Part shown: positions 3,070 through 11,822 of the stretch, one piece after another | Numbering within the stretch: position 1 is the stretch's first letter | Layout: each line of letters begins with the position of its first letter | Assembly (NCBI GenBank): GCA_017959005.1 | Contig: JAGDBO010000020.1 | Coordinates: forward strand, 1 to 41,651 | Source: Bacteroidales bacterium | Lineage (GTDB): Bacteria > Bacteroidota > Bacteroidia > Bacteroidales > UBA932 | Direction: 5' to 3' | DNA: 41,651 nucleotides | Program-made: the position numbers and the translations under genes | Notes under the pieces: model-generated | What the model saw: the letters and a program-made list of their open reading frames with translations, nothing else | The model's database searches: none | What the model was told of the DNA's origin: nothing

Positions 3070-6000
3070 ATGAGATATTTAGCCAAAAGAATAGTTGCTT
3101 TTGTGGCAATTCTGCTAATGACCGTTCCGGTTATGGCTCAGTATTATGATATTGGAAACGAGCCTGTGGGCATAAAGTGGAAAACCATGCGTTCCAAGAA
3201 CTTTTCCATATTGTTTCCGGACAGCACCTCCTTCTCAAAGTATTCCAGAGTAGGAAACGGCTATGGAAAGCATTTGGAAAAGACTGCGGCAAGATATCTG
3301 GCAATGGTGGAGCGCTCCTATGGCATGCACGCGGACTCTGTAAGGTTCACCTATGGAATACCAAGCAAATTCCCGATGGTTATCCACCCGTTCAACGCAA
3401 AGAGCAACGGAGTGACCGTTTGGGGCCCAAGACAGATAGACTACTTCTCTTTACCATCTACAGAGATCATCTCCACCGAGCCGTGGGATGTGAGCCTTGC
3501 TACTCATGAGGGACGCCACGCCTGGCAGATGGCTCACTTTAACAAGGGAATCTTCAAGGTTCTCTATTGGTTTGCCGGAGACAATGTCATTGGATCTGCA
3601 AGCGGAATCTACCCTTCTGCCTGGATGTTGGAGGGAGACGCGGTGGTTGCTGAGACGGAGATGAGCAAGGGCGGACGCGGAAGAAGTGCAGCATTCCTCT
3701 CTCACACCCTGCGTTGTATCATTCCTCCGGGAGAGAAGGATTTCAGCAAGTACACCTACGGCAAACAGCGTAGTTGGGACCGCTGGCGTCTGGGTTCCGT
3801 AAAAGCATATACCCCGGCAGTTTACGATGTGGGCTATATGCTCAACTCTATGGCTCGCTACAAGAGCAAAGATCCTGACTTCATGCACAACTTCCTCAAC
3901 TATGAGGTAAACCATTTCTTCAGTGCAAACGTTGTTGCCTCCGCATTCAAGAGACACGCAGGCAAGACTCACCGTCAGTTTGTTCTGGAGGATGAACTCC
4001 ATGCCTTTATGGAACTCAACTCAAACAAGCCGTTCATATCTATAATGAATTTTCTGAAGAAAGAGGAGAATTACTCTCCTGTAAGCCTGGCGGAGAATCC
4101 TTTGAGCATAAGCGGAGAAAAGAGTGGTTACTTTACGGTTTACCATTCTCCGGTGGAGATAGGAAAAGACTCTGTGATTGCTGTTGTTGAGGGATATGGT
4201 ACGGCTCCTTACATTGTGCTGATAACCAACGAGAACGGAGAGTGGAAACAGAAGAAACTCACATACTTTGACAGCGGAACTACCAACCTGGCATACTATG
4301 ACGGAGTTGTTTGGAAGGGCGAACACAAACCTCATCCAAGATGGGGACAGGTTGCAAGAAGTTACCTCTGCGGATATAACGTAAAAGAGAACGAGGATAT
4401 AGATTATGTTGGAGAGTTCGGCTCCAGAGAGGGCGGCTATCTCTATGAGCCTGCGGTAGTTATGGTGAGCGGGCGTCCTGTCCTTTATGCCATAACTTAT
4501 GATCCTGCAACCTTCCATCTCTTCTCTGCAATAACACCAATCTGTTACTTGGATAACTCCTCTGAAGATGTATCCCTTCTTCCGGAATACAAGATAGAGG
4601 GGCAGGCGGTATCCTTCACATCAGTGGGTTCTGAAATCATTTATTCTGTTTTAAATGATGAGGGACTCTCAGTTGAGAAGACCTGGATGGACGGCGGAAA
4701 GCAGTTTAACGCAACTCTTATTGAACCATCTTTCCATACGCTTACTCATCTTAAGAGCAAGGGCAATGAAATCTTCTTTGTTTCAGATTATTACGGAAAC
4801 ACCAACCTTTGCCGTATGGATGTCACAACCCGCAAGGTTAAACTTGCAGCTTTGGCAGACAATATAGACAACTACTACCTCTCTGAGTTGGAAGATGACG
4901 TTGTCTACATTTCAAAGGGAGTGGGAGACAAAGGATGCTTCCCGTTCAAAGAGAAACTTGTAAACGTAGAGGTCTCTGATGATATGGAGTTCACCTATCC
5001 TCTGGCTGAGGAACTTACCCGCCAGTATCACCAGAAATGGGATCATCCTATTGCAAAGGAGAAGGTAGAGGACGAAGCAAATAACTATGTTGTAGAGGAT
5101 TACAATAGACTATCACATTTGTTCCGCATCCACTCCTGGTATCCGGCAAACGCTATTCTTACAGGCGAGACCTCCGGAAGTGAGTTTATAGAGATGGACG
5201 GTCTTGGAGTAACTCTCCACTCTCAAAACACTTTGGGAACTTTGAGAGCCTCCGCCTCATACTCTTTCAAGAGAGCATCTCGTTTTGGTACCAAGACCAG
5301 AAACCTTCACGGTGCCCACGCAACACTCACATATTCAGGATTCTATCCTGTTATCAGCGCAGAGGTTCACTTCAATGACAAGGTAATGATTTCAGACAAC
5401 AAACACTCTTTCAGAAGTGAGGTTCTTGCTTACCTTCCTCTGGAGTATGATCTCTTTAAGTCTGAACTTGAGATTGTTCCGTTTGTAGGATGGCAGTATA
5501 GAAATGACGAGAGCATTCCGGAGATAGACCTCAACCAGATCTCTTTCCGCCAAATAGAGAGAAATCAGATTGCTGTGGGAATAGAGAGCGCCAACTACAT
5601 TGGAATGGCCAAGGCGCAGATTTATCCTAGATGGGGAATTGGAGGATCCATTGCAGGATACTTCAACCCTAACGGCGGAGACAAGTTCGGAACTGTTTAC
5701 GCCGGAAGACTTTTCGGTTACCTTCCAGGATTTGGATTTAACCACGGATTGCGTCTCTCATACTCTTATCAGAGGCAGGAGATTTCCGGCAAGAGATTCT
5801 GGATGGACAATGCCATAGATCTTCCAAGAGGCTATACAGAAGACTTTTACGGCCGCAACTATATGCTTGCAACCGCAGATTATGCAATTCCAATCTATTT
5901 GGGAGATGTGAGCCTTGGATTCTTTGCATATCTGAAACAACTCCGCGTAACTCCATTCTTTGACTTTGGAAGAGTGGAGATGCCGCGCACCGTTTCTCCT

Positions 6001-6222
6001 TTCAGGAACGACAGGGTTTGGGAGTATCACAAAAGATTTTCATACGGAGCAGATGCTGTTCTCTGTGCAAACTTCTTTAGAATAGGATTCCCGTTCCAGG
6101 TAGGGTTCCGCTATGCAAGAACCAATAAGCCTGTGGATTATGGTATGGCAACCCCTTTAATCTATGACGGAAAGGGAAGGAAAAACTACTTTGGATTCCT
6201 TTTGGGAATTACTATCAGATAG
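3070..6222 (+). CDS. Large outer-membrane protein with HExxH peptidase motif and C-terminal beta-barrel
   Basis: 1050 residues with a signal peptide (about 1-23, ending VMAQ). An N-terminal globular region contains HEGRH at 146-150 and a downstream Glu in LEGD (E188), the pattern of a gluzincin zinc peptidase. Residues about 330-650 are beta-rich with repeated short strands, suggesting a TolB-like propeller. The last 350 residues have alternating aromatic and polar strands and end GITIR, like a surface-antigen/BamA-type outer-membrane barrel. Function is unknown; a periplasmic metallopeptidase anchored by its own barrel is the simplest reading. The 3' end overlaps uvrC on the other strand by 8 bases. 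Confidence 0.75.
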   Translation: MRYLAKRIVAFVAILLMTVPVMAQYYDIGNEPVGIKWKTMRSKNFSILFPDSTSFSKYSRVGNGYGKHLEKTAARYLAMVERSYGMHADSVRFTYGIPSKFPMVIHPFNAKSNGVTVWGPRQIDYFSLPSTEIISTEPWDVSLATHEGRHAWQMAHFNKGIFKVLYWFAGDNVIGSASGIYPSAWMLEGDAVVAETEMSKGGRGRSAAFLSHTLRCIIPPGEKDFSKYTYGKQRSWDRWRLGSVKAYTPAVYDVGYMLNSMARYKSKDPDFMHNFLNYEVNHFFSANVVASAFKRHAGKTHRQFVLEDELHAFMELNSNKPFISIMNFLKKEENYSPVSLAENPLSISGEKSGYFTVYHSPVEIGKDSVIAVVEGYGTAPYIVLITNENGEWKQKKLTYFDSGTTNLAYYDGVVWKGEHKPHPRWGQVARSYLCGYNVKENEDIDYVGEFGSREGGYLYEPAVVMVSGRPVLYAITYDPATFHLFSAITPICYLDNSSEDVSLLPEYKIEGQAVSFTSVGSEIIYSVLNDEGLSVEKTWMDGGKQFNATLIEPSFHTLTHLKSKGNEIFFVSDYYGNTNLCRMDVTTRKVKLAALADNIDNYYLSELEDDVVYISKGVGDKGCFPFKEKLVNVEVSDDMEFTYPLAEELTRQYHQKWDHPIAKEKVEDEANNYVVEDYNRLSHLFRIHSWYPANAILTGETSGSEFIEMDGLGVTLHSQNTLGTLRASASYSFKRASRFGTKTRNLHGAHATLTYSGFYPVISAEVHFNDKVMISDNKHSFRSEVLAYLPLEYDLFKSELEIVPFVGWQYRNDESIPEIDLNQISFRQIERNQIAVGIESANYIGMAKAQIYPRWGIGGSIAGYFNPNGGDKFGTVYAGRLFGYLPGFGFNHGLRLSYSYQRQEISGKRFWMDNAIDLPRGYTEDFYGRNYMLATADYAIPIYLGDVSLGFFAYLKQLRVTPFFDFGRVEMPRTVSPFRNDRVWEYHKRFSYGADAVLCANFFRIGFPFQVGFRYARTNKPVDYGMATPLIYDGKGRKNYFGFLLGITIR

Positions 6223-9887: not shown

Positions 9888-10598
9888 CTATGGTACAGGA
9901 TCATAGCCGCTGCCGCCCCAAGGGTGACAACGGAGAATTCTTTTTGCAGCGAGGTAGAACCCCTTAAGCGGCCCGTACTTACGGAAGGCCTCAATTGCAT
10001 ATTGAGAACAGGTTGGGGTAAAACGGCAACTTGCAGGCTTTAACGGAGATATGCAAACCTGATAGAACTTAATCAACAGCACAAAGGGAAAACTCAGCAC
10101 ACCCTTTACTCCCCGCCAAATTTTCTTCCAAAAACCGCCGGTTGGCTGGCTAGTAGTGCAACTGTTTCTTGCTGAGTAGTGTGATGCAGCACAGGCATCA
10201 TCGGAGGAGGAGTTGTCGTCTGATGCAGTGCTGTTTGTTGCGGCAGAAATCTTCTGAAGGATTTCAACAACTGCAGACTCAATCTCTTTGTAAGAACGGA
10301 TATCCTTTGCAATGTACATCAGACTTATGGATAGTCCCTGCTGAGGAAGAATTTCTTTGTGAAGACGGTAAGCCTCTCTCATTCTGCGCTTTAGAAGGTT
10401 GCGGTCTACCGCTCTTTTGAAGCTTTTCTTTGGAGCAATGACCATCACCTTGTTGACGTTCTTCTCCTCTGCTGCAATGTATTTTGACAGGATTGGTGCT
10501 GCCTCAATGCGATGCCCCCGAGAGACAAGTTGAAGTATCTCTCTGCGTGAAGTTACTCTTTCATTCTTCTTGAAAGTATGCCTTACAGTAAGGGACAT
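9888..10598 (-). CDS. rnpA-yidD: RNase P protein component fused to YidD
   Basis: 236 residues, two proteins in one frame. Residues 1-117 are RnpA, the protein subunit of RNase P that helps mature tRNA 5' ends, with the RNA-binding RNR signature ([18 protein letters not shown], 61-78). Residues about 118-153 are a Ser/Asn/Asp-rich linker. Residues about 160-236 are YidD, a small amphipathic inner-membrane-associated factor that aids YidC insertion, with [16 protein letters not shown] and [13 protein letters not shown]. In many bacteria the two genes are separate neighbours, and I see no stop or start between the domains here. Last gene of the minus operon SUI1 - DUF4271 - hemD - rnpA/yidD, 3 bases after hemD. 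Confidence 0.93.
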
Positions 10599-10601
10599 TG
10601 A

Positions 10602-11822
10602 TTATCTCTTACCCGCTTTTTTTGCTACGGGTTTCTTTGTCTTGCTCTTAGACGGAACGGTCTTCTTTACTGCTACCTTTTTAGCAACGGTTTTCTTGCT
10701 AGTAACCTTTGTAACCTGCTTTTTAACAGCCTTTTTCACGATAGCTTTCTTTGCTGCGGGCTTCTTTGCAACTACCTTTTTTGCTACAGGTTTTGGAGCC
10801 GCCTTCTTTGGTGCAACCTTTTTAGTAGCAGGTTTTGGAGTGTTTTTCTTTGCAGGTGCGCTCTTCTTTGCTGCAGGTTTTACTACAACTTTCTTAGCGG
10901 TTGGCTTTGCAACTTGCTTTTTTACAGCAGGTTTTACGGCTGCCTTCTTTGGTGCAACCTTCTTTACTTCAACCTTTGGAGCAACAGGTTTTGGCTCTGC
11001 AACTTTCTTAGCCTTAACAGGTTCTGCCGGTTTTGCAACAACAGGTTTCTTCTCTGCAGGCATAATGGTCTGTTTGAAATCCGGCTCAACAATCAGTTTC
11101 TCAAGAGCGTTTGCCAGTGACGGGAACTCCGAGGTTGGACCGCCGATTGCATAGTTCAACCCCGCCTCTGTCATTGCCTTGCGGATACCGGAACCGAATG
11201 CTACAAACTTGGTATCTCCCGGTTTGTAGTTAGGAAAGTTGTTCTTGAGTGAGGTGATATCCAGTGCGTTGTAGAAGGCAATGATTTGATAGTCATTAAG
11301 GTTGAGATCCTTAAGGTCATTGTCTACAAACTTTGCAACCACTGCGGAGGCAAACTTGAGTTTAGTCTCCTGGAACATAGATATCCACTCAGGATAGATG
11401 TGATCCGGTGAAGCAAGCAAAAACTTGTCATCCTTATGCTTTTCTGCCTTTGCAAGTTTTACAACAGAAGCAAAGGTTCCGTCTCCGTAGAAAATCTTTC
11501 TCTTACGGTAGATGATGTGCTTCTGCAGATAGTATGAAATGTTCTCGGATGTGCAGAAATACTTCTGAGAATCCGGAATCTTAATTCTCTGCTCCAGACA
11601 AAGTTTGAAGAAGGCGTCTATTGTTCCCTTGGAGGTGAATACTATTGCAGTATAGTCCGGGATGTTAACCTTCTGTGCGCGGAACTCTCTGACACTCAGA
11701 GGAACCATGCTGAAGAAAGGCTTAAAGTCTATCTTAACGTTATATTTATGGATGAGGTTTGCATAGTGAGGATTTGCACTTGCAACGCCCGGCTGAGCTA
11801 TAAGAATTCTATCTATCTTCAT
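10602..11822 (-). CDS. hemD: Uroporphyrinogen-III synthase with histone-H1-like C-terminal tail
   Basis: 406 residues. Residues 1-250 match the Bacteroidota HemD family (AIVFTSKGTIDAFF, KYFCTSE, YRKRKIFYGDGT, IIAFYNALDITSL, VAFGSGIRKAM, LEKLIVEPDF), which closes hydroxymethylbilane to uroporphyrinogen III. From about 256 to the end (150 residues) the sequence is almost only Lys, Ala, Pro and Val in repeats such as KKVAPKKAA and KKSAPAKK, like histone H1/HctB-type DNA-binding tails. The tail is in frame and ends at the natural stop. It overlaps the DUF4271 gene by 4 bases. The family is often annotated simply as uroporphyrinogen-III synthase in Bacteroidota; activity is not proven here. The tail suggests nucleic-acid binding. 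Confidence 0.85.
   Translation of the reverse strand: MKIDRILIAQPGVASANPHYANLIHKYNVKIDFKPFFSMVPLSVREFRAQKVNIPDYTAIVFTSKGTIDAFFKLCLEQRIKIPDSQKYFCTSENISYYLQKHIIYRKRKIFYGDGTFASVVKLAKAEKHKDDKFLLASPDHIYPEWISMFQETKLKFASAVVAKFVDNDLKDLNLNDYQIIAFYNALDITSLKNNFPNYKPGDTKFVAFGSGIRKAMTEAGLNYAIGGPTSEFPSLANALEKLIVEPDFKQTIMPAEKKPVVAKPAEPVKAKKVAEPKPVAPKVEVKKVAPKKAAVKPAVKKQVAKPTAKKVVVKPAAKKSAPAKKNTPKPATKKVAPKKAAPKPVAKKVVAKKPAAKKAIVKKAVKKQVTKVTSKKTVAKKVAVKKTVPSKSKTKKPVAKKAGKR

Follow-up and report, generated by a model that had tools for sequence, protein, structure and literature searches.

When two neighbouring bacterial genes are read through as one open frame, is the product really a single protein, and what does it mean for the cell if the two halves stay on the same chain? 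This question is raised by a locus in the window, the whole stretch of 41,651 nucleotides analysed here, which comes from the genome of a Bacteroidales bacterium (G000; contig JAGDBO010000020.1). On its minus strand an ATG opens a frame of 236 codons (9888..10598) with no internal stop, the rnpA-yidD fusion gene. A sequence-only reading had proposed that this one frame encodes RnpA, the protein of RNase P, which takes part in tRNA maturation, and YidD, an aid to the insertion of membrane proteins, both intact, and profile searches bear out the proposal. Residues 9-117 (10248..10574, minus strand) match PF00825 (Ribonuclease_P) over profile positions 1-108 of 109 with 56.7 bits against a cut-off of 22.3, and residues 172-235 (9894..10085, minus strand) match PF01809 (YidD) over positions 4-67 of 67 with 105.6 bits against a cut-off of 27, as well as TIGR00278 with 84.5 bits against 40. 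Each of the two Pfam profiles has one match in the genome, and both matches lie within the fused frame. Among 16 aligned fusions, R66, N67, K70, R71 and R74 of RnpA, a region which we take to be the RNR motif and which in the window protein aligns with the T. maritima protein, are invariant, and the same is true of C191, R192, T194, P195, C197, S198 and Y200 of YidD and of its block C224-H-P-W-G-G229. The NCBIfam equivalog model for rnpA, TIGR00188, gives 33.7 bits on the window protein, under its cut-off of 38.35, and 35.1 and 31.1 bits on two further fusions, so that all three proteins tested stay below the cut-off for rnpA and all three pass the YidD model. Therefore, rnpA may be missed in annotation: automatic naming may give YidD only, with rnpA seemingly missing from the genome.

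Could the joined frame be a product of sequencing or assembly? The four fused contigs that are named are all metagenome assemblies, which speaks for such an artefact, but the same fusion is present in 19 genomes with linkers that differ from one another and under purifying selection, and error is thereby ruled out for practical purposes; we give it next to no credence. These genomes came from a search for YidD across the genus. YidD is present in 37 of the 39 genomes of the genus, where 19 have it fused in frame with RnpA and 18 have separate genes; the fusion-bearing group consists of bacteria partly from the rumen. The sequence-only reading had pointed to a stop or a frameshift in the linker as a finding that would speak against it, and all 19 fused genes proved free of both there. 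A family-wide search for RnpA (199 genomes, 176 matched) covered nine of the fused genomes, with one RnpA match each, and the best 80 of at least 581 loci in the collection included four fused ones, taken as the genus members G184, G074, G200 and G150, together with 75 separate ones and one without RnpA in the piece. A tree of flanking genes (HemD domain, SUI1, OlsF-like, UvrC and DUF2723/TMEM260-like, 34 to 39 rows each) was built for 41 genomes, of which 37 belong to the genus and four to other genera. All 19 fused genomes form one clade in this tree with an ultrafast bootstrap of 100, and beside it, also with 100, stand G190 and G003, which have separate overlapping genes. The four genomes from outside the genus are placed among the unfused ones, where branches are weak; because they are no clean outgroup, the root of the tree is uncertain. 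Full separation in relatives, which had been named as a finding that would count against the fusion, does exist in 18 genomes of the genus, but all of them fall outside the fused clade, and the fusion is kept in all 19 readable genomes of that clade.

How could such a fusion arise? The two genes overlap in each of the 18 relatives that keep them separate: yidD lies in the +1 frame in 16, and the overlap is ATGA in the other two. In G190 and G003, the overlap is 23 and 26 nt long, again in the +1 frame, and yidD starts with a hydrophilic leader. Seven of the 18 separate yidD genes (L143, L148, L149, L160, L163, L169 and L174) have TTG only, and no ATG, before their core. In the ancestor of the clade, rnpA and yidD, overlapping in different frames, would have been joined into one frame, for which a single net shift of frame within the overlap, together with the loss of the rnpA stop, could be enough. 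The linker is most likely derived from the tail of the former RnpA plus the leader of the former YidD, and may have drifted in length afterward. The gene upstream, considered here as context only, is hemD-like (10602..11822, minus strand; PF02602, 37.3 bits), and its product ends in a Lys/Ala/Pro-rich, histone-H1-like tail of 171 residues (about 10602-11117). Where HemD lies within the region read, the tail measures 72-290 aa in all 18 fused genomes as well as in G190 and G003, against 12-16 aa in the remaining 19 genomes, of which 15 belong to the genus and four to other genera. By the flank tree, the tail most simply arose before the rnpA-yidD fusion. Elsewhere in the window, an open reading frame of 1050 aa (3070-6222, plus strand) has no Pfam match at E <= 1e-5.

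Is the fusion confined to this one clade? In a search of the order (393 genomes, 386 matched), stop-free frames over both domains appeared, among the matches listed, in G000, G404 and G556, and in a search of the phylum (395 genomes, 388 matched) the only single-frame match over both domains among those listed was that of G000. Outside the genus, 30 regions (4 + 20 + 6) with a long frame or a frame spanning both domains were surveyed; two of them are RnpA-YidD fusions (G404 and G556), eight join YidD to a TatD-like domain, and 20 are neither, five of which (G400, G464, G488, G851 and G879) have no RnpA in the piece read. In G902 rnpA and yidD are separate. The family of G404 (38 genomes, 37 matched) has the fusion in five of the 26 genomes of one genus and in none of the 11 matched genomes of the other. 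The linkers of this second clade do not resemble those of the clade of G000. At the YidD end of its members (L189, L190 and L245-L247), CNPFN..VGYDP replaces [11 protein letters not shown]. In G996, which among the genomes with separate genes stands closest in the tree, rnpA and yidD share a frame and are parted by one TAG, an arrangement which suggests that the second fusion arose by a different route. In the best tree computed from RnpA and YidD together (65 rows, 204 columns), two changes have to be assumed, and the starred branches alone require as many; the 19 fusions make up one side of an unstarred branch at 88/92. The tree comes with a warning of long branches (G213 with G217), and a single fusion clade is not rejected by the AU test (p = 0.286). 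From the tree, from the dissimilarity of the linkers and from the placement of the genomes in different families, two independent origins are likely, though not proven.

The part that joins the two domains is rich in Ser, Asp and Asn and occupies residues 118-156 in the window protein (10131..10247, minus strand), as delimited by the predicted structure and by its variable length in relatives. Among the 19 fusions its length, measured between the end of the final RnpA helix and a point 22 residues ahead of YidD's first Cys, ranges from 24 residues (G178 and G212) to 122, and it is hydrophilic and in frame throughout. The several cysteines ascribed to it came down to two (C136 and C147), which are not conserved: linkers contain zero to two Cys, and 12 of the 19 have none. 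Pooled, uncorrected pN/pS was computed over 11 non-independent pairs, in several of which the synonymous sites of the linker are close to saturation; RnpA has a value of 0.18, the linker one of 0.39 and YidD one of 0.07. Because of this value of 0.39 and of its in-frame evolution, the linker, judged from its sequences, is translated and evolves as a weakly constrained protein.

What would the chain look like? A model was made by AlphaFold2 from 42 rows, namely the window protein, four further fusions, and pieces of unfused RnpA (21) and unfused YidD (16) from named contigs, and reached a mean pLDDT of 84.9 and a pTM of 0.57. Its RnpA part has block pLDDT values of 93-98 across residues 11-120, and the last RnpA helix, residues 103-130, runs into the linker. 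Residues 134-152 have pLDDT below 50 and are predicted to be disordered; then come a helix of residues 156-182, with pLDDT 92 across 161-180, and the YidD helices, and confidence is low at the C-terminal residues 229-236. No support for a fixed orientation of RnpA and YidD to each other was obtained from the model. Foldseek returned 16 PDB matches at E <= 0.001, whose titles are nearly all RNase P protein or holoenzyme, with TMt up to 0.83 against experimental RnpA structures from T. maritima and B. subtilis (0.83 for the holoenzyme chain 3q1q_A); no solved structure of YidD was found by sequence search. The long helix between linker and YidD (residues 157-182; 10053..10130, minus strand) is predicted to be amphipathic in its first part from the model and from the hydrophobic moment, which is 0.60 in the window protein and is reached by 1% of 300 shuffles; for some relatives, as for the window protein, hardly any shuffle has so high a moment, and for other relatives the moment does not stand out. 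YidD proteins are membrane proteins of the cytoplasmic side, and an amphipathic, membrane-associating helix at the N-terminus is characteristic of the family. If both domains lie on this side, a tether between them is possible.

Our main reading, to which we give a probability of about 0.6, is thus a fixed fusion of overlapping neighbours: one chain in which the RNase P protein is predicted to be tethered to the helix of YidD. The fused gene would be read as one uncleaved polypeptide with two separately folded domains. Its RnpA half would bind the RNase P RNA, whose gene lies at another place in the genome, and its YidD half would probably be attached through its N-terminal helix to the cytoplasmic side of the inner membrane and assist YidC, while the flexible linker may let both halves act. 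With a flexible arm on a membrane-bound YidD, at least part of RNase P would therefore be held near the membrane. The ratio of RnpA to YidD, which the sequence-only reading had regarded as fixed by the fusion, is indeed fixed at synthesis because there is a single frame, and it is to this step that the statement applies.

The main rival of the tethered chain is cutting of the arm. The fusion would then be a precursor polyprotein, made as one chain and cut in the exposed linker to release ordinary RnpA and YidD. A linker which is hydrophilic, disordered in the model and free to vary in length would suit this fate, but no conserved cleavage motif, or conserved Cys, is evident by eye in the 19 linkers, and the shortest linkers of G178 and G212 give little room for a cut. 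Hydrophilicity being the only evident feature that the linkers have in common, a general protease might still cut them. We regard a polyprotein as rather unlikely, though as an alternative to be taken seriously.

Another way to obtain YidD alone is initiation inside the fused frame, and an internal start had likewise been named as a point on which the single-chain reading could fail. As candidates we considered ATG, GTG and TTG codons in frame from the RnpA region to the first Cys of YidD. At least one is present in 16 of the 19 fused genes, seven of which have one upstream of the last 24 codons, while the other nine have theirs solely within these 24 codons, inside the YidD helix. Also on the side of internal initiation is the presence of TTG without ATG in the seven separate relatives mentioned above. 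But G200 and G210 have no candidate at all in this interval, G097 has none from codon 91 to the first Cys, and a start at the commonest site, which 11 of the 19 genes have 18 codons ahead of the Cys, would remove the helix. In the second clade, three genes out of five (G556, G1013 and G1016) likewise lack any such codon beyond the RnpA region. The last in-frame ATG of the window gene comes no later than codon 94, and an in-frame ATG inside the linker occurs in G150 only among the 19 fusions. An internal start is thus ruled out as the general source of YidD by G097, G200 and G210; candidate codons stay in place in the other 16 genes, and we consider it improbable that YidD is additionally made alone from them.

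If the tethered chain is the product, are its partners there? In the genome of the window, RNase P RNA was found with RF00010 at 169.7 bits (G000:C18), SRP RNA at 50.9 bits (G000:C10) and a YidC-family gene at 188.8 bits (G000:C9). Across the genus RF00010 has a match in 32 of the 39 genomes, 31 of them above the cut-off. With at most 28 candidates scored per genome, five of the 19 fused genomes (G074, G097, G210, G212 and G214) and two of the 18 separate ones (G027 and G208) gave no RF00010 match; because of this number of candidates, the misses are weak evidence and may be technical. G027, G074 and G097 are well completed genomes among the seven. Two of the five fused genomes without a match are more than 90% complete. 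YidD assists YidC according to an excerpt of PMC3573977, and it is listed among SecYEG contacts in a table of PMC8082313. It might be imagined, then, that the RNase P of this clade is membrane-anchored, each of its protein subunits carrying an insertase helper, and that a physical coupling of RNA processing to membrane-protein synthesis evolved twice; this further step is doubtful in our eyes. If it were true, tRNA, and possibly SRP RNA, would be matured beside the YidC/SecYEG site.

Why has the fusion spread and been kept? The overlapping genes might have merged neutrally, tethering bringing no advantage, and have stayed merged because a split is hard to regain. Several observations go along with such a history: rnpA and yidD overlap in E. 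coli K-12, too, by 37 nt; linker conservation is poor; and in eight genomes read (L212-L219), from three families of the order, the C-terminus of YidD is fused to its other neighbour, a TatD-like domain (three of the eight calls confirmed with Pfam and five made by eye). In P. gingivalis W83, hemD, rnpA, yidD and tatD are neighbouring genes (PG_0202 to PG_0199), all four upregulated in the mutant studied, as an excerpt of PMC10101095 reports. This gene run and the YidD-TatD fusions suggest that members of the run merge readily, and therefore favour the neutral view. Against it stand the retention of the fusion throughout the clade and its second appearance in another family. We hold a neutral merger to be nearly as probable as not; as it concerns why the fusion spread, it does not exclude a tethered protein, with which it is compatible.

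Both protein families are known, no report of an RnpA-YidD fusion was found in literature searches, and the fusion is an unreported combination in the literature searched. We know of no established reason why rnpA and yidD adjoin each other. Are RNase P and membrane insertion functionally linked, or are their genes mere neighbours? The fused clade and the second case are natural material for this question. The adjacency itself is found in many bacteria, as stated in excerpts of PMC10941002 and PMC7191817. The rpmH-rnpA-yidD-yidC cluster of E. coli K-12 has the same two proteins in the same order and on the same strand as the window, but there rnpA and yidD are two frames making two proteins, while the window has one frame; moreover, the upstream neighbour in the window is hemD-like, and yidC is on another contig. 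P. gingivalis W83 has the same neighbours as the window, annotated there as separate proteins. In Thermus, rnpA contains a nested rpmH (PMC9841429, in an excerpt citing Feltens 2003), and thus shares DNA with a neighbour gene as the window's rnpA does; according to that excerpt L34 is made from its own start as a separate protein, whereas in the window the neighbour is in frame and joins the chain. The YidD-TatD fusions of other Bacteroidales families also merge YidD with a neighbour, but they do so at the other end of YidD and with a different partner protein.
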